The notes beneath the pieces were generated by a model. It worked only from the letters and a program-made list of their open reading frames with translations, was not told where the DNA came from and made no database searches. Shown here one piece after another: positions 14,240 through 56,884 of a stretch of 64,000 nucleotides of DNA. How positions within the stretch are numbered: position 1 is the first letter of the stretch; each line of letters starts with the position of its first letter. The stretch spans positions 17,808 to 81,807 of IMG/VR virus record IMGVR_UViG_3300025889_000092, one strand, 5' to 3'. Origin of the DNA: a virus. The position numbers were made by a program, and so were the translations under genes.

Positions 14240-14853
14240 TGACATCAACACCTGTTGTCTTTCTTTTAAAGCGTTCGGGTATTTCTTCCGACCGTCCCAG
14301 CGGTACGATCCTGCAAGCAGGTGAACCTGCTATGTGTTTTGGCGGGGCAGATCCCGGCCTTTATTTTGAAGATTCGGCTGGAGATGTCCGTAAGATCGGG
14401 CCTTCGGCTTATGGTACGACTGCGCCTAACTCAACTCCCGCAGGTCTCGCTGGCAACTCCGTAGGGGAACTTTGGACGGATAGCAGCGGACCGAATTATT
14501 ACTTAAAAGTTTGGACTGGAGGAGCGTGGCAGAAGGTTGGTGCTGGTTTTGCTGACAGCAGTACCACGGCGGGTTCTGCCACAACTGCGAATACAGCTAA
14601 TTTTGCTTCCGCTTCTGCGATTGCGTCTGGAGCAATAGTCGCGTCCGGGGCAATAGTCGCATCCGGAGCAATCGTTGCGTCTGGAGCAATTTTGGCTTCA
14701 GGAGCTGTTCAGACCTGTGCGATTGTCATCAGCGGTTTACCCGCTGTAGCCACAAGCCTCTCCGGCTCCCTTGTTTACCAAATCCAAAGCTCTGGTACAA
14801 CGCCCAGCGGTCTGTTTGTTCGGGTACTAGACGGTTGGGCGTTTACTAACTAA
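14239..14853 (+). CDS. Tail-fibre-like protein with ASGAIV repeats
   Basis: 204 residues. Residues about 125-155 are five tandem copies of an ASGAIV-type hexapeptide, encoded by an imperfect 18-base DNA repeat (14625-14705), suggesting a trimeric beta-helical or collagen-like shaft. The N-terminal part resembles the phage fibre motif in which a GELWTDSSG-type turn precedes YLKVWTGGAWQKV. The same texture recurs in the tail genes at 22-31 kb. It converges on the minus-strand Dps-like gene with a four-base overlap. Confidence 0.6.
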   Translation: MTSTPVVFLLKRSGISSDRPSGTILQAGEPAMCFGGADPGLYFEDSAGDVRKIGPSAYGTTAPNSTPAGLAGNSVGELWTDSSGPNYYLKVWTGGAWQKVGAGFADSSTTAGSATTANTANFASASAIASGAIVASGAIVASGAIVASGAILASGAVQTCAIVISGLPAVATSLSGSLVYQIQSSGTTPSGLFVRVLDGWAFTN

Positions 14854-15386
14854 CCCCGAAGCGTGGCTTTTAGGAACCAAGCCGCTTTGAACGACGCTCC
14901 GACATATTCGGCTAGGTAGTTCTCGATGTCAGGAGCGTCTACTTCTTTTGCGACTTTTTGCATATCCTTAGCCATCATTCCAGCTTTCTCGAGGTTGTTC
15001 AGGTAGGTCGTCAGCATGTCCCGCATTTCGTAGGACTTGACGTGCTTAAAGGATTTGTACGCCTGCTGCAGACCGCGAGCACACATCGGCATAAAAAAGT
15101 CTAAGGTCCGCACGAACTCCGACAGAGCGTCGAACTGCTCGATGTGGAGTTCGTACTGACCCTTTAAGTACTCGTGGATAGGCAGGAAAATAGGACCTTC
15201 AATGTTTAAGTGGATTAAATGTGATTGGGTGTACAACTGGTTTGTATACGAAGCAAGGCCCACGAGCTGAGAAGAAAGCTCCTCAACCGTAGGCCTAGCC
15301 ACCATCTCGGGAACTTCGGTGACGATTGTCTCTACCTGTTCGACTACAGGAATCGGACGATCAGCAAAAGTTTCCGAGTAAGTCAT
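14850..15386 (-). CDS. Dps-like ferritin-fold protein
   Basis: 178 residues. Dps proteins form 12-mers that oxidise and store iron and shield DNA from oxidative damage. The segment HLIHLNIEGPIFLPIHEYL then FDALSEFVR aligns with the Dps ferroxidase region: H59, H71, D86 and E90 match the usual ligands, but the Asp normally four residues after the second His is K75. Two further helices follow. A 35-residue N-terminal extension is Val/Glu/Pro rich. It lies two bases downstream of a small HTH gene on the minus strand, inserted among + strand structural genes. Fold call is good; full ferroxidase activity is doubtful. Confidence 0.7.
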   Translation of the reverse strand: MTYSETFADRPIPVVEQVETIVTEVPEMVARPTVEELSSQLVGLASYTNQLYTQSHLIHLNIEGPIFLPIHEYLKGQYELHIEQFDALSEFVRTLDFFMPMCARGLQQAYKSFKHVKSYEMRDMLTTYLNNLEKAGMMAKDMQKVAKEVDAPDIENYLAEYVGASFKAAWFLKATLRG

Positions 15387-15387
15387 A

Positions 15388-15657
15388 TCAGAAAGGGCAA
15401 GCTGCGGTGCTCAGCTGTTGAACTTCCTCTTCCACTTTAACTGTAGAAGAACTACGAAGATACTCTTCAAGAGCGTTACGGTTTACGCGATAAAGAGACT
15501 TTGCGCCGTTGGGCTGAAGATTCACGTACACGGACTTAGGCCAGCCACCGGGTTGGTTAGCTTCAGACAAAGCGATGCGCTTCCGCACAAAACCAGAACT
15601 GCAGTTCAGAAGTTCAGCCGTTTCCGCGATAGTAAGAAGAGTCTTACTTTCCGACAT
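15388..15657 (-). CDS. Small HTH DNA-binding protein (excisionase/MerR-like)
   Basis: 89 residues. The N-terminus LLTIAETAELLNCSSGFVRKRI is a winged HTH of the excisionase/HTH_17 type, followed by a wing-like YVNLQPNGAKSLYRVNRNALEEYL. Such proteins bind DNA as transcription regulators or recombination factors; no integrase is visible so a regulator is more likely. It is the first gene of a two-gene unit with the Dps-like gene. An inverted repeat lies 45 bases upstream. Confidence 0.7.
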   Translation of the reverse strand: MSESKTLLTIAETAELLNCSSGFVRKRIALSEANQPGGWPKSVYVNLQPNGAKSLYRVNRNALEEYLRSSSTVKVEEEVQQLSTAACPF

Positions 15658-15701
15658 TGTATATGCGGGAAATGAGTTACGGCTCTATGTTACATACGTT
15701 T

Positions 15702-15720
15702 CTTGTGTGCGCAACACAAG
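15702..15720. promoter_or_regulatory. Inverted repeat, candidate operator
   Basis: CTTGTGT and ACACAAG flank a 5-base spacer, giving a 7+7 inverted repeat in the divergent gap between the HTH gene (starts 15657, minus) and the gene at 15777 (plus). The position suits an operator for the HTH protein. Confidence 0.4.
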
Positions 15721-15776
15721 CTTCTTCTACCTCACAACTTCTTTATTATTCGGATGCTACTATTAAGGTGAGACTC

Positions 15777-16031
15777 GTGACCAACATGATTCGACTTGCC
15801 GGAGAAGTCTTTAAGTCATACAACAAACCAAAAAGAGACATCCAGGGAGGTAAACAGTTCGCTGTGGCCGCTAAAGAAGATGGTGAAGTTCGGTTAGTTC
15901 GTTTTGGAGATGCGAATATGGAAAACAAAAGTGACGACCCCGAACGCCGCAAGAACTTTAGAGCACGTCATAATTGTGATGAGCCCAAGAGTAAATTAAC
16001 AGCTGGATATTGGAGCTGTAAGGCTTGGTAA
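15777..16031 (+). CDS. DUF6321-like small protein
   Basis: 84 residues from GTG 15777, preferred to ATG 15786 because AAGGTGA lies five bases before it. The pattern FKSYNKPKR, then FAVAAKEDGEVRLVRFGDAN, then RRKNFRARHNCD and KLTAGYWSCKAW resembles DUF6321, a family seen in phages and associated with virion genes; function unknown. Confidence 0.6.
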   Translation: MTNMIRLAGEVFKSYNKPKRDIQGGKQFAVAAKEDGEVRLVRFGDANMENKSDDPERRKNFRARHNCDEPKSKLTAGYWSCKAW

Positions 16032-16116: not shown

Positions 16117-16368
16117 ATGGGCTCCCGGAAGTCCGATGACGCTCAGAACGTCTCGTGCGGCTTAACTTTAGAAGACGAATTCGTTTTAACACGAATACGA
16201 GTCAAAGCTCACTCACTCAAGAATAAAGAAAGAGATCAGTATCTTTGGGAGACCGTTTTTAAGTTAGTTTGTCGCGAAAGAGCTTATAAGACGGTAATGA
16301 ATGAAGTAGGAATCGCTGTGGACACTAACATGGATCTTTTTGATGATGTTCTTGAAGACCAAGATTAA
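16117..16368 (+). CDS. nblA: NblA-like phycobilisome degradation protein
   Basis: 83 residues. Positions 16-66 (LTLEDEFVLTRIRVKAHSL ... LWETVFKLVCRERAYKTV ... EVGI) follow the NblA/Ycf18 pattern: L-[ST]-L-E-x-E-F-x-L, a helical linker, then L-V-x-R-E-x-x-Y-K and a final G. NblA dimers link phycobiliproteins to the Clp protease and cause breakdown of the light-harvesting antenna. Some freshwater and marine cyanophages carry it. Ours has extra residues at both ends (usual length about 55-65). It would act in the host cytoplasm on phycobilisomes, freeing amino acids and lowering light capture. It implies a phycobilisome-bearing host, not Prochlorococcus. Confidence 0.65.
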   Translation: MGSRKSDDAQNVSCGLTLEDEFVLTRIRVKAHSLKNKERDQYLWETVFKLVCRERAYKTVMNEVGIAVDTNMDLFDDVLEDQD

Positions 16369-16373
16369 TTGAG

Positions 16374-16386
16374 TTTAAACTATAAG
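16374..16386 (+). promoter_or_regulatory. TTTAAACTATAAG motif, candidate phage promoter
   Basis: Second occurrence of the TTTAAACTA element, 24 bases before the virion lysin start and 5 bases after the NblA-like stop. See also 4864 and 37718. Confidence 0.4.
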
Positions 16387-16410: not shown

Positions 16411-17538
16411 ATGAGCGAACGGCAGATACTCGAGCAGTTTCGTTCGACTCCTGAAGGCCAACGTCTGCTTCAGGCTATCCGTTTTGCTGAGGGGACCTCT
16501 GGACCTCAGGGGTACCGCACCATGTTTGGTGGCGGCACATTTTCAGATCTAAGTAGGCACCCAGATCGAGTTATATCCGCTGGCGGTTACAACAGTGCAG
16601 CTGCTGGCGCATACCAATTTATGCCTGGGACATGGAATCAACAGGCATCGAAGCTTGGGCTGTCGAGTTTTGGTCCTTACGAGCAAGATATAGCCGCTCT
16701 TGGTTTAGCTAGAGATCGGTTGATGCCTCTTGGAGGTTTATCAGTCTTAAAGACGGAGGGTTTAAGTCCGCGTGTATCAGCCGCACTTGCTCCTGAATGG
16801 GCGTCCTTCCCGACTCTTTCAGGTAAAAGCTATTACGGTCAGCCTGTAAAATCTCTTCAACAGATTCAAAGTGTGTATGGCGGTGAGGTTCGGAACGCCG
16901 CAGCTCCTGGTTCTCCAGCTGCAGCACCGGCTCAAAGAGACTTCAAGTCTGAAATGGCCGGTATTCTGTTCAAATATTTAGGTAATCGCAATCAAGCTTC
17001 TGATCCCTACTCCACTTTGATAAGTTCAAACGCAACTGCAGACTTATTAGAGCAAGAAGGGACTCTCGAAGCTCTTGAGAAAGCTGACGAACTACGCTCA
17101 GCGGGACTTATGAAGGCTTTTGAAAGTTCCTCTACTTCAGACGATTACTCAAAACTAGCTTCAGATTTACTTTCGGTTGTCCAGCAACGAGAGCTTGGTC
17201 AAGCAACGGCTAGCTCCACATCGCCTGGTTCACTTAGTGTAGTTCAATACATCACAGGTGATCCTCAACATCCAAACTTTGTGTCCGACCACGGTGGTTC
17301 TAATTATCACGACCATTTGGAATTTCCTACGGTCGAGCAAGCAAGAGTTGCTGCCGCAAAGTTAAACCAGGCTGGAATTAAAACCACGGAACTTAAAGGT
17401 ATCAACCCCGTGGGACAACACACAGCCGGGTCGGCCCACTATCGCGGCGTGGCCTTTGACGTTCCTGGGGCACAAGTTCCAGTTGGCCAGGAAAGGCAGC
17501 TTTCTTCTCGGGTCAGGAACGTTCTTGGTTTCGGGTAA
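16411..17538 (+). CDS. Virion muralytic enzyme, lambda R-like (GH104) plus C-terminal domain
   Basis: 375 residues. Residues 20-155 match the lambda R / GH104 lytic transglycosylase pattern: AEGTSG with the likely catalytic E27, then FGGGTFSDLSRHPDR, AAGAYQFMPGTWN and PEWASFP. The enzyme cleaves the glycan strand of peptidoglycan. The middle is helical; the C-terminal 100 residues carry YHDHLEFPT and AHYRGVAFDVPG, resembling the S-x-H-Y-x-G-x-A-x-D-V pattern of M15/VanY-like peptidases, which would add peptide cleavage (uncertain). Position in the structural block, far from the lysis genes, suggests a tail lysin used at entry. Confidence 0.7.
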   Translation: MSERQILEQFRSTPEGQRLLQAIRFAEGTSGPQGYRTMFGGGTFSDLSRHPDRVISAGGYNSAAAGAYQFMPGTWNQQASKLGLSSFGPYEQDIAALGLARDRLMPLGGLSVLKTEGLSPRVSAALAPEWASFPTLSGKSYYGQPVKSLQQIQSVYGGEVRNAAAPGSPAAAPAQRDFKSEMAGILFKYLGNRNQASDPYSTLISSNATADLLEQEGTLEALEKADELRSAGLMKAFESSSTSDDYSKLASDLLSVVQQRELGQATASSTSPGSLSVVQYITGDPQHPNFVSDHGGSNYHDHLEFPTVEQARVAAAKLNQAGIKTTELKGINPVGQHTAGSAHYRGVAFDVPGAQVPVGQERQLSSRVRNVLGFG

Positions 17539-17608: not shown

Positions 17609-18250
17609 ATGTCCGTTCCGCCAATTGACTGGGGCAAAGTTTTAACACCCGCCGCGACCAGTCTTGGCACAGGGCTTGGCGGATTTCTCGGAGGCAAACT
17701 TGGACAGGCTGTTGGCCTGACTCCTACCAGCTATCAAAGTGGGGTCACCCAAACAGCGATCAACGATCAAATAGAAAATATCAAAAAGTTAACCGAAGAA
17801 ATCCAAGCTCGCGCTGAGTACTATCGCGGTTTGGGTGAGCAGGCAACCGCAGACCTCGGAAAGATTTCAGGGATTTCAATTCCTGAGTACCGCACATCGG
17901 CGCTTGATCAATTTAATCAAGGTGTGGCCGCTGAACGAGCCCTGGGTCAAAGCACCCTGCAAAATTACGACCCCAATCTCTTACGTTCTGCAGCCGGTGG
18001 ACGTTTTCGGTCTGCGCTCTCCTCTTCGGCTGATGACTACCGAAGGGCTATCGGATCTTTAAGTAGCGAAGGATCCCAACGCTTTTTAACCGCAGCAACC
18101 GCTGTTCCCGTAGCAGCATTCAAGTCGATAGCCGACGATCGAGATTTCAATAATCTCCTCAATCCGGAATTCATGTCTCAAGCCACGAACCCCATGACCG
18201 TTAGTATGGATCTAACTAAATACAAGCCCTACATGACATATAATGTCTGA
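17609..18250 (+). CDS. Hypothetical internal virion protein
   Basis: 213 residues. N-terminal Gly-rich, weakly hydrophobic segment (LGTGLGGFLGGKLGQAVGL) like the glycine-zipper regions of ejected proteins, followed by a helical coiled-coil-prone middle (NDQIENIKKLTEEIQARAEY). No family recognised. Position after the virion lysin fits an internal or tail-tip protein. Confidence 0.5.
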   Translation: MSVPPIDWGKVLTPAATSLGTGLGGFLGGKLGQAVGLTPTSYQSGVTQTAINDQIENIKKLTEEIQARAEYYRGLGEQATADLGKISGISIPEYRTSALDQFNQGVAAERALGQSTLQNYDPNLLRSAAGGRFRSALSSSADDYRRAIGSLSSEGSQRFLTAATAVPVAAFKSIADDRDFNNLLNPEFMSQATNPMTVSMDLTKYKPYMTYNV

Positions 18251-38212: not shown

Positions 38213-39445
38213 ATGGGGCTCTCGCAGCGCGGACTTGATTTAATAAAACACTTCGAAGGTTTGCGCCTTACTGCTTATAAATGCAGTGCGGGTGTCGACA
38301 CGATCGGTTACGGACACACTGGTCCTGACGTTAAACCGGGCTTACGGATTACGCAGGAAGAAGCAGAAAAATTGCTGTGGAAGGACACCGAGAGCGCACA
38401 GCAAGCTGTAAATAGTTTCGTAAATATTAGATTAAATCAGAATGAGTACGATGCTTTAGTTTCCTTCGTTTTCAACGTAGGCCCTAGTGCGTTTGTAAGC
38501 AGCACACTCCTCAGACTTTTAAATTCGGGTGCGGAGCGTAATATCGTTGCGGGCGAGTTTGCGCGATGGGTTAAAGCCGGTGGCGATAAAGCAGTTCCAG
38601 GACTGGTTAGGAGACGCCAGAAAGAAAAGGAGCTATTTTTGGAACAAATTAAACACCCTCTCTTGGGCAAGTCCATCCTGGCCAATAGGGACACTTGGTT
38701 GAAACGCCAACCGATTGACTCTGGCAAGCTTCCGGCTGAGCAAAAACTCTTTGTGCCGAAAGGTGCTGCCTGGCAGTGGACTGAGATTCGTATGTACGCT
38801 GGTGAGGCTCATCAAAGAGTCTTCCTGCAACAGCAACCAGATAAAGAATGGTGGTTTTATCCTGATCACTGGAAAATAATTAATGATGCGTCTACGGAAA
38901 CAGAGGTAACAGCCCCCTCTAAAGATATAAAACTTGATGTTCCCTATTACTCTCAGCGAGATAATTACAGAGATGCCAACCGCACCTGTTTTTCCAGCAG
39001 TTGTGCGATGTTGCTTAGCGGGCTGGACAAAAATGCCATCCGTAATGACGACGACTACATACGTGAAGTTTTTAAATTAGGGGACACTACAGATGCTTCA
39101 GTACAAATAGAAACCTTAGCTCATTTTGGAGTCGAGGCTAAATTCCTTACCTCAGGCAATTGGTCTAGCGTCGAGGATCAGCTCAAAAAAGGCGTACCTG
39201 TTCCTATTGGCATTCTTCATCACGGTTCCGTCAGTAACCCCAGCGGCGGAGGGCACTGGATCTGCGTGGTCGGCATCACTGCCGATCGCTCAAAATTATT
39301 AGTTCACGATCCTTGGGGTGAGCTTGACCTTGTTTCAGGGTCCTATGTGAGCCAGAACGGCAAATACAAGCTCTATTCGAAGAAAAATCTCGGTCCTCGA
39401 TGGATGGTCGAGGGAGAGGGGTCGGGTTGGCTCATAAAAGCTTGA
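38213..39445 (+). CDS. Two-domain endolysin: GH24 lysozyme plus C39-like peptidase
   Basis: 410 residues. Residues 1-145 are a T4-lysozyme type GH24 domain: HFEGLRLTAYKCSAGVDTIG gives the catalytic Glu and the TIGYGH motif, with ALVSFVFNVG and VPGLVRRRQKE further on. Residues about 240-410 resemble a C39-like peptidase: LDVPYYSQRDNY, Cys in RTCFSSSCAMLLSG, His in GGGHWICVVGI and Asp in LLVHDPWGE. Together they would cut glycan and peptide parts of peptidoglycan during lysis. No signal peptide, so a holin is needed; candidates lie just upstream on the other strand. Confidence 0.85.
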   Translation: MGLSQRGLDLIKHFEGLRLTAYKCSAGVDTIGYGHTGPDVKPGLRITQEEAEKLLWKDTESAQQAVNSFVNIRLNQNEYDALVSFVFNVGPSAFVSSTLLRLLNSGAERNIVAGEFARWVKAGGDKAVPGLVRRRQKEKELFLEQIKHPLLGKSILANRDTWLKRQPIDSGKLPAEQKLFVPKGAAWQWTEIRMYAGEAHQRVFLQQQPDKEWWFYPDHWKIINDASTETEVTAPSKDIKLDVPYYSQRDNYRDANRTCFSSSCAMLLSGLDKNAIRNDDDYIREVFKLGDTTDASVQIETLAHFGVEAKFLTSGNWSSVEDQLKKGVPVPIGILHHGSVSNPSGGGHWICVVGITADRSKLLVHDPWGELDLVSGSYVSQNGKYKLYSKKNLGPRWMVEGEGSGWLIKA

Positions 39446-46508: not shown

Positions 46509-46656
46509 TAATGATCATGGCGAGATCGAACAGAGCTTAGCGGTTTTCTTTAGGTTGTCGATGTGTCCTGCACCTAAAGTGGTGTTGTTGCATCTGAAGA
46601 TTATGTTAAATCTTGGATGGCTTGGGACCGAACAGAGCTTTTTACATCAACGCGTA

Positions 46657-46857
46657 ATGCTTGATGCGAAGAAGCTTGACAAGGAGCAACTACTTGAAGT
46701 CTTCGAAGCCACCCATCAGCAGTACCTTTTACGGAGCAAGCTCTTCACTAATTTAATTTCTTGGTGCGCTCGTAATGGTGTGCTCCTTCCTCCTCTGACG
46801 GATCTTTTTGAAGACCGTCCTGTTGATCACCCTTTGGAGAGTGAAAGGGAAGCTTGA
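46657..46857 (+). CDS. Small helical protein (LDAKKLDKEQLLEVFE)
   Basis: 66 residues from ATG 46657, the only + strand gene in the replication block. Opens MLDAKKLDKEQLLEVFEATH then QQYLLRSKLFTNLISWCARN, helical, with a PP turn and acidic end. I recall similar tiny proteins in cyanophages but cannot name a function. An upstream in-frame TTG (46555) would lengthen it. Confidence 0.5.
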   Translation: MLDAKKLDKEQLLEVFEATHQQYLLRSKLFTNLISWCARNGVLLPPLTDLFEDRPVDHPLESEREA

Positions 46858-46858
46858 G

Positions 46859-46886
46859 ATAAAAAAAAACGGCCCTTTCGGGCCGC
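46859..46886 (-). terminator. Rho-independent terminator for the minus-strand SSB unit
   Basis: CGGCCC-TTTC-GGGCCG stem-loop (46870-46885) with an A run on its left in + orientation, i.e. a T run in the minus direction, 22 bases after the stop of the gene ending at 46908. Confidence 0.8.
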
Positions 46887-53926: not shown

Positions 53927-54154
53927 TTATACCCACACCCCCTGTGGGCTAACTCGGGTCCACTTGGCTTCTCCGTTAATTCTGCCGTTGCATACAAACA
54001 TTTCGTTTGTGTCCGGGCTCATCCAGATTGAACCTATAAGACTGTCTTTAGGTAAATGGCTTAGGTCTTCAGTTGGACTTTGCCGTTGTTCGTATTCGTT
54101 TTGAATACGTCTAATTTCGTCGCCGGGGTCAGCGGGTTTCTCGTTGTTAATCAT
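53927..54154 (-). CDS. Small hypothetical protein, 75 residues
   Basis: Overlaps the VWA stop as ATGA, so coupled to it. Acidic, with a small beta part DSLIGSIWMSPDTNEMFVCN then GRINGEAKWTRVSPQGVWV. The last strand pattern resembles fibre-type domains but is too short to call. No family recognised. Confidence 0.5.
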   Translation of the reverse strand: MINNEKPADPGDEIRRIQNEYEQRQSPTEDLSHLPKDSLIGSIWMSPDTNEMFVCNGRINGEAKWTRVSPQGVWV

Positions 54155-55695
54155 CTGATGCTCTTCTGAACAGCCTCTACGGTAGCTTCGGGGTTTGAGA
54201 GATTCACAGAAAAAACTTCATCGCTAATTTTTGTACATACAAGGGGGACCGCAGAGTTAATGCAGATCGTCGACCATTGTAAACCGTGCTCACGTTTGTA
54301 GACGTTCAACCGCTTTACAAAGTTATCGTGTATTTCGGCATTACCGTCTGTTATTAAAAGGACATCGGCGTTGGGTTCGATTCGAGCGTGATCGAGCGCG
54401 TGGGCGATGACTGCATTAAAACTTGTGCCTCCCCCCAACGTCCAGCATGCGACGAAGTCAAGTAACTCGGAGTTGTTTTTACGACTTTTGTCGAGACTTA
54501 CAGACATGTCGATCTTGGTGTCGAACAGATGAATCTCAATATCTCTGTTCTCTTTCATAGCATGTTCAGCAACTACAAAGGTAATCGCTTTACTCCAGAG
54601 CTCGCTCTCCCCTCCCATAGAACCTGAAGCGTCGACATAGAGGATTATCGGACCTTTACCTACGTCCTTTCTGTGTGCTTTAAAGTCCTTTGTTAATAGA
54701 GACTTCTGAGTGTACTTTAGGGCGAAAAGAGCTTTTCCTTCTTCCGATCCAGCTAAAGCTAACTCTGCGGGAAAAGTCTTTGTGACATCATCGCTGAAAA
54801 TTGCTCCACTAATACTCTCGTAATTAGATCTTATTTTCCGGGCTTTCTTACGTTCCTCCCATATTCTGCGAAGAGCCCCGAGTTTCTTTACGAGACTTTT
54901 TAAGCTCTTGTTGCTTTCAAGTTTTTTAGCGAGAGTTTTCTTTTGTTCTAAATCAAGTTTCTTCTCTTTTGTTCCTGGGGTGGAGCCCCACAGTGAGGAG
55001 ATAGCATCCTGAATAGAGTCGCTCTGCTTCACCGTGGAGTCCACGATCCTGTGAGAATGTACTTGAAGGTTTTCCTTGGCGTTCTTTATCGCTTCGTTAA
55101 TCGCGTTTACTAGCTCTTTGCCCTTCCTTCTGGCTTCGGTAGCCGCCGATGAGTCACCATTAGCCTGAGCTTTCTTGTATTCCTCTCGGAGTGCTTGGAG
55201 AGCTTGGGCTGAATTAGTCAAAAGCTCAACATCAAAACTTTCATCAAGAATCGAATCCTCGATGACTTTAGATAATTCGTTGAGGATATTTACTGCATTG
55301 TTGCCTGCATTGAACTGATCACCGACGCTTCTTTTTAGAAGCTCGAACCAAGCTGCTGACTGCGTCAGATCGTTCATGATCGAATACCATATTCCGTTCT
55401 CGGGTTTGTACCCTTCAGGAATAGCCGTGGTATCTCCGTCACATATTTTCCTGAAGTAATCTTCATAGGCTTCTTCTGATACTAACCATTTAACGTTGTC
55501 TGCATTGTATAGACGATCAAAGAGTTCCTTGCCAAAGCGAGAAAGCTGTCTGATGTTATACGCATCTACTAAATATTTAACGGTTGGCTTAGCGTCCCGG
55601 ATGAAGTCGTCCCACAAAAAATCAGCAAGGGCTGAACAAGCCAAGGTCAAAGGTTGGTTGTCGAGAATGCGGACAAAGTCAACTTCGGTGTTCAT
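54151..55695 (-). CDS. VWA-domain protein, CoxE/ViaA-like partner of the MoxR ATPase
   Basis: 514 residues from ATG 55695, one base after the MoxR stop. The C-terminal VWA domain has a complete metal site: DASGSMGG (near 352), GGGTSF (near 421) and ITDGNAE (near 446). The N-terminal 350 residues are helical and charged, as in CoxE/CobT/ViaA proteins. VWA proteins of this class work as substrate adaptors or effectors for MoxR AAA+ ATPases. The phage-borne pair therefore likely forms a chaperone-like remodelling complex. Confidence 0.75.
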   Translation of the reverse strand: MNTEVDFVRILDNQPLTLACSALADFLWDDFIRDAKPTVKYLVDAYNIRQLSRFGKELFDRLYNADNVKWLVSEEAYEDYFRKICDGDTTAIPEGYKPENGIWYSIMNDLTQSAAWFELLKRSVGDQFNAGNNAVNILNELSKVIEDSILDESFDVELLTNSAQALQALREEYKKAQANGDSSAATEARRKGKELVNAINEAIKNAKENLQVHSHRIVDSTVKQSDSIQDAISSLWGSTPGTKEKKLDLEQKKTLAKKLESNKSLKSLVKKLGALRRIWEERKKARKIRSNYESISGAIFSDDVTKTFPAELALAGSEEGKALFALKYTQKSLLTKDFKAHRKDVGKGPIILYVDASGSMGGESELWSKAITFVVAEHAMKENRDIEIHLFDTKIDMSVSLDKSRKNNSELLDFVACWTLGGGTSFNAVIAHALDHARIEPNADVLLITDGNAEIHDNFVKRLNVYKREHGLQWSTICINSAVPLVCTKISDEVFSVNLSNPEATVEAVQKSIR

Positions 55696-55696
55696 T

Positions 55697-56884
55697 TCAG
55701 TTACTAATTTCGTTGATTGCCTGAGCAAGGCTTTCGCATTGCTGTTGAATGTTCTGCACTATTTTTACGCCGTTTGCTCTTGTTGTAGCGGAAATTTTAT
55801 ATTGACCTCCGTCCAAAACCTCGGTCGCTTTGTCTCGCACAGTAGAAATATCTCTGTGCCACTTCCTGAGTTGAATGACGTATTCATTCAGGTCGCTGAG
55901 GCCACCCGAGCGGTGCCTGTGGGTAAAAGAGTTTGCTTCCGCCATGATCCCTGCTGCAGCACGCTTGGCATCGCTCAGAGTCTTTTCAGCCGTAGGGACA
56001 ATTTGTTCGAGAACTTCCCGAATCGCTTCTTGATCTTCCCTTTCCTGATACACAATGTGAATCAAGCTCCCGTGCATGTGGGATGGGTGCAGTTCATCAT
56101 CACCTTGAACGAGTGCCCAGGCCCTCAAAAATTTAAGTATTTGTGACCTTCTCCGATCGCTTACGGTGATGTTTCTGCTGCTCAGCATGTCCCAGACTGA
56201 ACCGTAATCATCGAGGAAGCTCTCCGCTACCTTGACTTTATTTACAGCCTCTTGTAGATCCTCAAGATCCTTTAGCGTCAAGTGCTCACCAACCTTTGGT
56301 CGTTCCTCGATCCCCAGGGACCACTGATCGAGTACTCTCTTAGACACGGGCTTGCGGAGCAGCTCAACCGTGGGCCTGAAGAGAAAGCGATCCGCAAAAG
56401 CCTGAAGGGACTCCTCCTCCGGCCAACTGTTTGTCGCGGCAATAATTGATTGGATTGGTGTTTGTATATTCTCCTTACCGTTGTTGAAAGTCCGCTCATT
56501 GAGCAGCGTAAGAAGGGAGTTGAGAATTGCCGAACTTCCCCGGAACAGTTCGTCAAGAAATCCGATGTGAGCAGATGGAAGATACCCCGAGATATCTCGT
56601 GTGTATTCGTCCTTAAGAAGTTTTGTCACTGCGACCGGGCCGAATACTTCGGACGGATCGGTAGTGGGAGTCAGGAGATAACCAAAATAGTTCGCGTTTT
56701 TAATTCCACCACACAAGTTTCGAACTAGATCCGACTTACCTGTACCTGGAACGCCAAGAAGAAAGGCATTCTGCTTACTGAGAAGGGTCGCTAAGAGCCC
56801 ATCAATCACACTTTCCCTTTCCAGCGTGGCAGAGTTTAGAGAGCTTCGGAAGCCTTGAAGCTTTTGAAACAGTTGATCGTTCAT
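55697..56884 (-). CDS. MoxR/RavA-like AAA+ ATPase
   Basis: 395 residues. Walker A GVPGTGKS (44-51), Walker B GFLDEL with F109-E112, sensor-1 stretch IIAATNSWPEEE, and an ADRFLFR arginine region. The order and spacing are those of the MoxR/RavA class of AAA+ ATPases, which form hexamers and partner with VWA proteins. C-terminal 150 residues are helical and mediate partner contacts in relatives. It is followed by the VWA gene with one base between stop and start and preceded, after 47 bases, by the coiled-coil protein gene. Confidence 0.8.
   Translation of the reverse strand: MNDQLFQKLQGFRSSLNSATLERESVIDGLLATLLSKQNAFLLGVPGTGKSDLVRNLCGGIKNANYFGYLLTPTTDPSEVFGPVAVTKLLKDEYTRDISGYLPSAHIGFLDELFRGSSAILNSLLTLLNERTFNNGKENIQTPIQSIIAATNSWPEEESLQAFADRFLFRPTVELLRKPVSKRVLDQWSLGIEERPKVGEHLTLKDLEDLQEAVNKVKVAESFLDDYGSVWDMLSSRNITVSDRRRSQILKFLRAWALVQGDDELHPSHMHGSLIHIVYQEREDQEAIREVLEQIVPTAEKTLSDAKRAAAGIMAEANSFTHRHRSGGLSDLNEYVIQLRKWHRDISTVRDKATEVLDGGQYKISATTRANGVKIVQNIQQQCESLAQAINEISN

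Follow-up and report, generated by a model that had tools for sequence, protein, structure and literature searches.

A phage genome related to Synechococcus phage S-EIV1 appears to encode two strongly diverged proteolysis adaptors of the NblA type, one in its late block (gene A) and one in its replication block (gene B), a reading to which we give a probability of roughly 0.6. Both genes lie in a window of 64,000 nucleotides, i.e., positions 17,808 to 81,807 of IMG/VR record IMGVR_UViG_3300025889_000092, in which all positions are counted from the first letter of the window unless stated otherwise (Table 1). The reading is favored by NblA as the sole Pfam match of gene A, by profile-profile scores, by the top ranks of both genes among the open reading frames (ORFs) of the window, and by the predicted helical hairpins. 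It is further favored by the placement of the virus in a Synechococcus-infecting lineage, by an NblA homologue in S-EIV1 itself, and by the phycobilin loss caused by the phage NblAs tested so far (PMC9602691).

Gene A and its locus

Gene A is a real gene under strong purifying selection. A chance ORF is ruled out by its relatives on 59 IMG/VR contigs (57–100% identity), by 22 invariant columns in the alignment of 29 family members, and by an excess of synonymous over non-synonymous differences (0.66–0.94 versus 0.01–0.20 per site in ten pairwise comparisons, with synonymous sites close to saturation). Both motifs by which the gene was originally recognized are present in the product (LTLEDEFVL, residues 16–24; LVCRERAYK, residues 50–58), and the LTLEDEF end is attributed, as a putative role, to docking of ClpC. 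The extensions that had been described at both ends of the protein fared differently: the C-terminal one (GI-V-TN...FDD) is conserved, whereas the N-terminal one is real but not conserved, being missing in the L040/L042/L046–L051 group of the family.

No match to gene A was obtained in PHROG, no relatives were found in INPHARED phages or GTDB contigs, and an Rfam scan of the region gave no match. Hsp104 and rhodanese, suggested by weak matches to solved structures (E 0.2–0.7), were rejected as short and without Pfam backing across the family. A recent origin of gene A from a host was also rejected, as 386 cyanobacterial genomes held no close relative and the three weak matches among them were unlike nblA genes.

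The placement of gene A among late genes stands, with an endolysin-like ORF adjacent to it and the portal and major capsid genes upstream. All 29 relatives examined share the same locus order of a late protein, a ferritin/Dps-like protein (minus strand), an HTH protein (minus strand), and gene A (plus strand), and in 18 of the 29 loci a protein related to the endolysin-like product of the window was matched just 3′ of gene A. A DNA-binding ferritin-like protein is annotated in S-EIV1 as well. Elsewhere in the window (38213–39445, plus strand) there is another endolysin-like gene (phrog_10051, phrog_7). For the 81-aa ORF upstream of gene A, the start in the listed version (15657–16031) is too early.

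Two short sequences flank the gene. The leader CTAGACTTTAA on its 5′ side showed no enrichment in the window when searched as a window-wide motif. On the 3′ side, the motif TTTAAACTATAAG that had been noted beside gene A does occur there as an exact copy, but its enrichment in the window is weak (five occurrences with at most two mismatches versus 2.0 expected, with five reached in 2 of 100 shuffles).

Table 1. Features of the gene A and gene B regions and of the NblA-like gene of S-EIV1
Feature	Position	Strand	Remarks
Ferritin/Dps-like protein (PF00210)	14850-15386	-	Late block; kept in 29/29 relatives
Conserved 81-aa ORF (phrog_7595)	15786..16031	+	Directly upstream of gene A; C-terminal end YWSCKAW
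Leader GAG(C/G)TAGACTTTAA	16084-16100	+	17-33 bases 5′ of gene A start; kept in many relatives
Gene A, probable divergent NblA homologue (83 aa)	16117..16368	+	ATG at 16117 to TAA ending at 16368; late block
LTLEDEF motif of gene A	16162..16182	+	Aligns with N-terminal LSLEQQF of NblA; invariant in 29 gene A members
TTTAAACTATAAG, possible regulatory element	16374..16386	+	Exact single copy between gene A stop codon and endolysin start
Endolysin-like gene (phrog_90)	16411..17538	+	E 2e-29; directly downstream of gene A
Gene B, probable second NblA homologue (84 aa)	46603..46857	+	PF04485, 16.8 bits; replication block
Terminator-like hairpin with T run	46869..46886	-	Would serve the minus-strand gene facing gene B
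AHV82245.1 gene of S-EIV1	L195:34903-35223 = KJ410740.1 73902-74222		Directly after lysozyme gene

Homology of gene A to NblA

The only Pfam family matched by gene A is NblA (PF04485), which is also matched by 23 of its 29 relatives. The original prediction had named a significant match to this family as its test, and such a match was not obtained, since the score of 16.8 bits falls below the curated Pfam cut-off of 25 bits. Because the PF04485 score by itself is weak, wider NblA profiles were built from cyanobacterial and podoviral NblAs together with the S-EIV1 gene described below and its family, excluding genes A and B. In profile-profile comparison gene A scored 75–77% against cyanobacterial NblA over 50 ungapped columns that span the hairpin, against at most 4.7% for 200 column-shuffled controls and 0.05% for the reversed alignment, and it scored 93% against the wider set without A and B. 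When the wider profile was run on the 747 ORFs of the window, genes B (E 5e-5) and A (E 8e-5) took the top two places, the next ORF having an E of 3.4. When either gene was shuffled 3000 times, no copy attained the real score. Homology of gene A to NblA was thus supported once profiles had been built, though not by the curated cut-off, and the comparisons support a divergent NblA homologue that by the Pfam threshold is not a member of the family.

AlphaFold2 predicts for gene A a helical hairpin (helices 18–33 and 37–64) at modest confidence (mean pLDDT 63), with its turn where the NblA alignment would place it; a Foldseek search of the PDB with this model did not return NblA. Leu51 and Lys53 (Anabaena NblA numbering) are the residues that we take to bind phycobiliproteins. 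The position aligned with Leu51 is always aliphatic in gene A and is aliphatic also in gene B and the S-EIV1 family. At the position aligned with Lys53, Lys occurs in 3 of 29 gene A members and Lys or Arg in 6 of 33 gene B members, and the S-EIV1 family always has Ala, so that the residue pair expected for phycobiliprotein contact at the C-terminal end appears to be incomplete, the Lys53-aligned position being mostly non-basic. A C-terminal tail that by eye seemed common to A, B, and the S-EIV1 family (GIAVDTNMDLFDD / GVLLPPLTDLFED) failed a shuffle test and was discarded.

A second NblA-like gene

A PF04485 search of the whole record hit two places with equal score, namely gene A and gene B, the latter of which had been missed by the earlier reading of the letters. 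Relatives of gene B are encoded on 119 IMG/VR stretches; all 14 family members that were scanned matched PF04485, and one orthologue (record G114, genome search) exceeded the cut-off with 25.4 bits. In profile-profile comparison gene B scored 79–86% against cyanobacterial NblA (shuffled controls at most 9%) and 90% against the wider NblA set without A and B, and its best match in the 386 cyanobacterial genomes is an nblA gene that was also found by PF04485. The predicted structure is again a hairpin (helices 9–23 and 27–58, pLDDT 79) with the turn as in the NblA alignment, and Foldseek searches of the PDB and BFVD with this model did not return NblA. From the N-terminal L-x-L-E-x-x-F motif, gene B retains EQxF only. 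At all 30 loci it stands alone on the plus strand, with a replication-block gene of the minus strand on either side.

Gene B is present in 12 of 26 checked records that bear gene A, including all eight of at least 75 kb, and its absence from shorter records does not count as loss. The two genes are always on the same strand, with B about 21–34 kb downstream of A (records G107 and G125 read as circular for these distances). Profile comparison could not align A and B with each other, which rules out that they are recent duplicates.

Phage lineage and host

Among 50,697 phage records, relatives of the capsid protein (68% over 99%) and the portal protein (44% over 95%) were found only in Synechococcus phage S-EIV1, and by these common major capsid and portal genes the virus can be placed with the S-EIV1-like phages. 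The same relatives lend indirect support to the earlier claim that the host carries phycobilisomes. The S-EIV1 genome contained neither A nor B, and its product AHV82245.1, annotated as hypothetical, was matched as an NblA homologue at 95% in profile-profile comparison. The family of AHV82245.1 comprises 31 IMG/VR relatives, and its profile matches cyanobacterial nblA genes with E-values down to about 2e-5.

For environmental genomes of the S-EIV1 group, the published list includes hli and ptoX, and nblA is absent from it (PMC5332604). We found no match to psbA in the 14 records searched and none to hli in those of them that carry gene A. The window further encodes a ThyX thymidylate synthase (PF02511; 40590–41306, plus strand), and the annotation of S-EIV1 likewise includes an FAD-dependent thymidylate synthase. 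An AAA-type ATPase (phrog_19600) is located beside a protein that resembles VWA proteins on inspection by eye (DASGSM motif; 54151–56884, minus strand), and the two may form a phage-encoded MoxR-VWA chaperone pair.

Proposed function and alternative explanations

If A and B are NblA-type adaptors, their helical hairpins would pair into a four-helix dimer that attaches to ClpC, a chaperone of the host, through the conserved L-x-L-E-x-x-F motif near the N terminus and binds phycobiliprotein with its C-terminal end. The Clp protease would then dismantle the phycobilisome with loss of the antenna, which would free amino acids for virion synthesis and lower the light load. Several observations count against this function: both genes score below the Pfam cut-off, the Lys53-aligned position is mostly non-basic, Foldseek returned NblA for neither model, the mean pLDDT of model A is only 63, and gene A beside an endolysin gene comes late for a gene that feeds replication.

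Gene A, and perhaps gene B, could instead be an NblA-derived ClpC adaptor that keeps the docking end but, through its altered C-terminal end, brings some other protein of the host or the phage to the Clp protease, an explanation that we consider unlikely, if the best placed of the alternatives. An invariant N-terminal motif next to a freely varying Lys53-aligned position would fit such a protein, as would the conserved C-terminal extension of A, which canonical NblA does not have, and two dissimilar NblA-type proteins in one genome suggest two tasks. However, no candidate cargo emerged, all three families (A, B, and that of S-EIV1) still have an aliphatic residue at the Leu51-aligned position, and the phycobiliproteins of picocyanobacteria may simply require a different contact surface.

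The retained docking motif of gene A, combined with the lack of a basic residue at the Lys53-aligned position and a late location adjoining the endolysin gene, would also be compatible with a dominant-negative NblA acting as an anti-adaptor, which would keep the antenna intact until lysis by occupying ClpC or by pairing with the NblA of the host. We give this little credence, as pigment loss is what the phage NblAs tested to date bring about (PMC9602691) and nblA is reportedly missing from at least one picocyanobacterium (PMC6337551). Equally improbable is that gene A encodes an unrelated small helical-hairpin protein, e.g., lysis-associated or of the virion, that resembles NblA by convergence: the sub-threshold Pfam score, the missing structural match, and the late context beside the endolysin gene would allow it, but the ungapped profile-profile match far exceeds the shuffled controls, gene A is in the top two of all window ORFs, and the NblA homologue of S-EIV1 also directly follows a lysozyme gene.

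Among these explanations we favor phycobilisome-degrading NblA-type adaptors. More speculative, and in our view rather doubtful, is the extension that in this picocyanobacterial phage lineage the two deeply diverged Clp adaptors of the NblA type, from the replication block and from beside the endolysin gene in the late block, work as an obligate pair or act on different cargoes, with one or both of these perhaps distinct from the phycobilisome.

Comparison with known NblA systems

Phages that carry an NblA gene are already known, as are divergent phage nblA forms that are detected by profile methods only (PMC9602691). What is new here are the families of A and B, the joint presence of both in a single phage lineage, and an NblA homologue that had gone unannotated in the isolate S-EIV1; as far as our searches could tell, the diverged pair appears to be undescribed in S-EIV1-like phages. 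If true, phage control of the antenna would extend to a lineage without a listed nblA (PMC5332604), and the idea is testable because a Synechococcus host of the isolate from this lineage is in culture. Two dissimilar adaptors per genome also raise the question of whether phages use NblA beyond bleaching, and the scores show that cyanophage nblA genes are under-counted by curated Pfam thresholds.

Cyanobacterial NblA is a small ClpC adaptor that hands phycobiliproteins to degradation and forms four-helix bundles of dimers in crystals (PMC7966870), with ClpC bound through a conserved motif near the N terminus and phycobiliproteins through one near the C terminus (PMC4103541). Gene A resembles these proteins (PF04485; PDB 1OJH, 2Q8V, 3CS5) in its small size, the L-x-L-E-x-x-F motif near the N terminus, and an alignment without gaps over the whole hairpin, a helix-turn-helix being predicted at modest confidence, and it differs from them in its sub-cut-off Pfam score, its N- and C-terminal extensions, and the mostly non-basic Lys53-aligned position. 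Two NblA-type proteins in one system recall Synechocystis, for which a heterodimer of NblA1 and NblA2 is reportedly required (Baier et al. 2014, title cited in PMC13197396), whereas a distance of 30 kb lies between A and B, which belong to different modules and encode proteins that are not mutually alignable.

In the freshwater cyanophages Ma-LMM01, MaMV-DC, and PaV-LD, phage NblA is associated with pigment loss during infection or on expression (PMC9602691). All highly conserved residues are present in the Ma-LMM01 protein, which shares 35% identity with the copy of its host (PMC4103541), whereas A and B lack a close relative in hosts. AHV82245.1 of S-EIV1, the nearest isolate, is like gene A an NblA homologue, and its gene directly follows a lysozyme gene, though its family is separate and by profile comparison not alignable with A or B. 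Diverged phage NblAs are also known from cyanopodoviruses and cyanomyoviruses (KBS-P-1A, S-TIP37, and S-SRP01; S-TIM5 and S-SCSM1; Nadel et al. 2019, as cited in PMC9602691), which like A and B score around or under the Pfam cut-off (23.9–31.3 bits against PF04485 for four podoviral NblAs) and are recovered by profile methods. In those phages one NblA gene per phage has been reported, beside an exonuclease gene in the podoviruses examined, whereas the phage described here carries two dissimilar NblA-like genes, one next to an endolysin gene and the other within the replication block.
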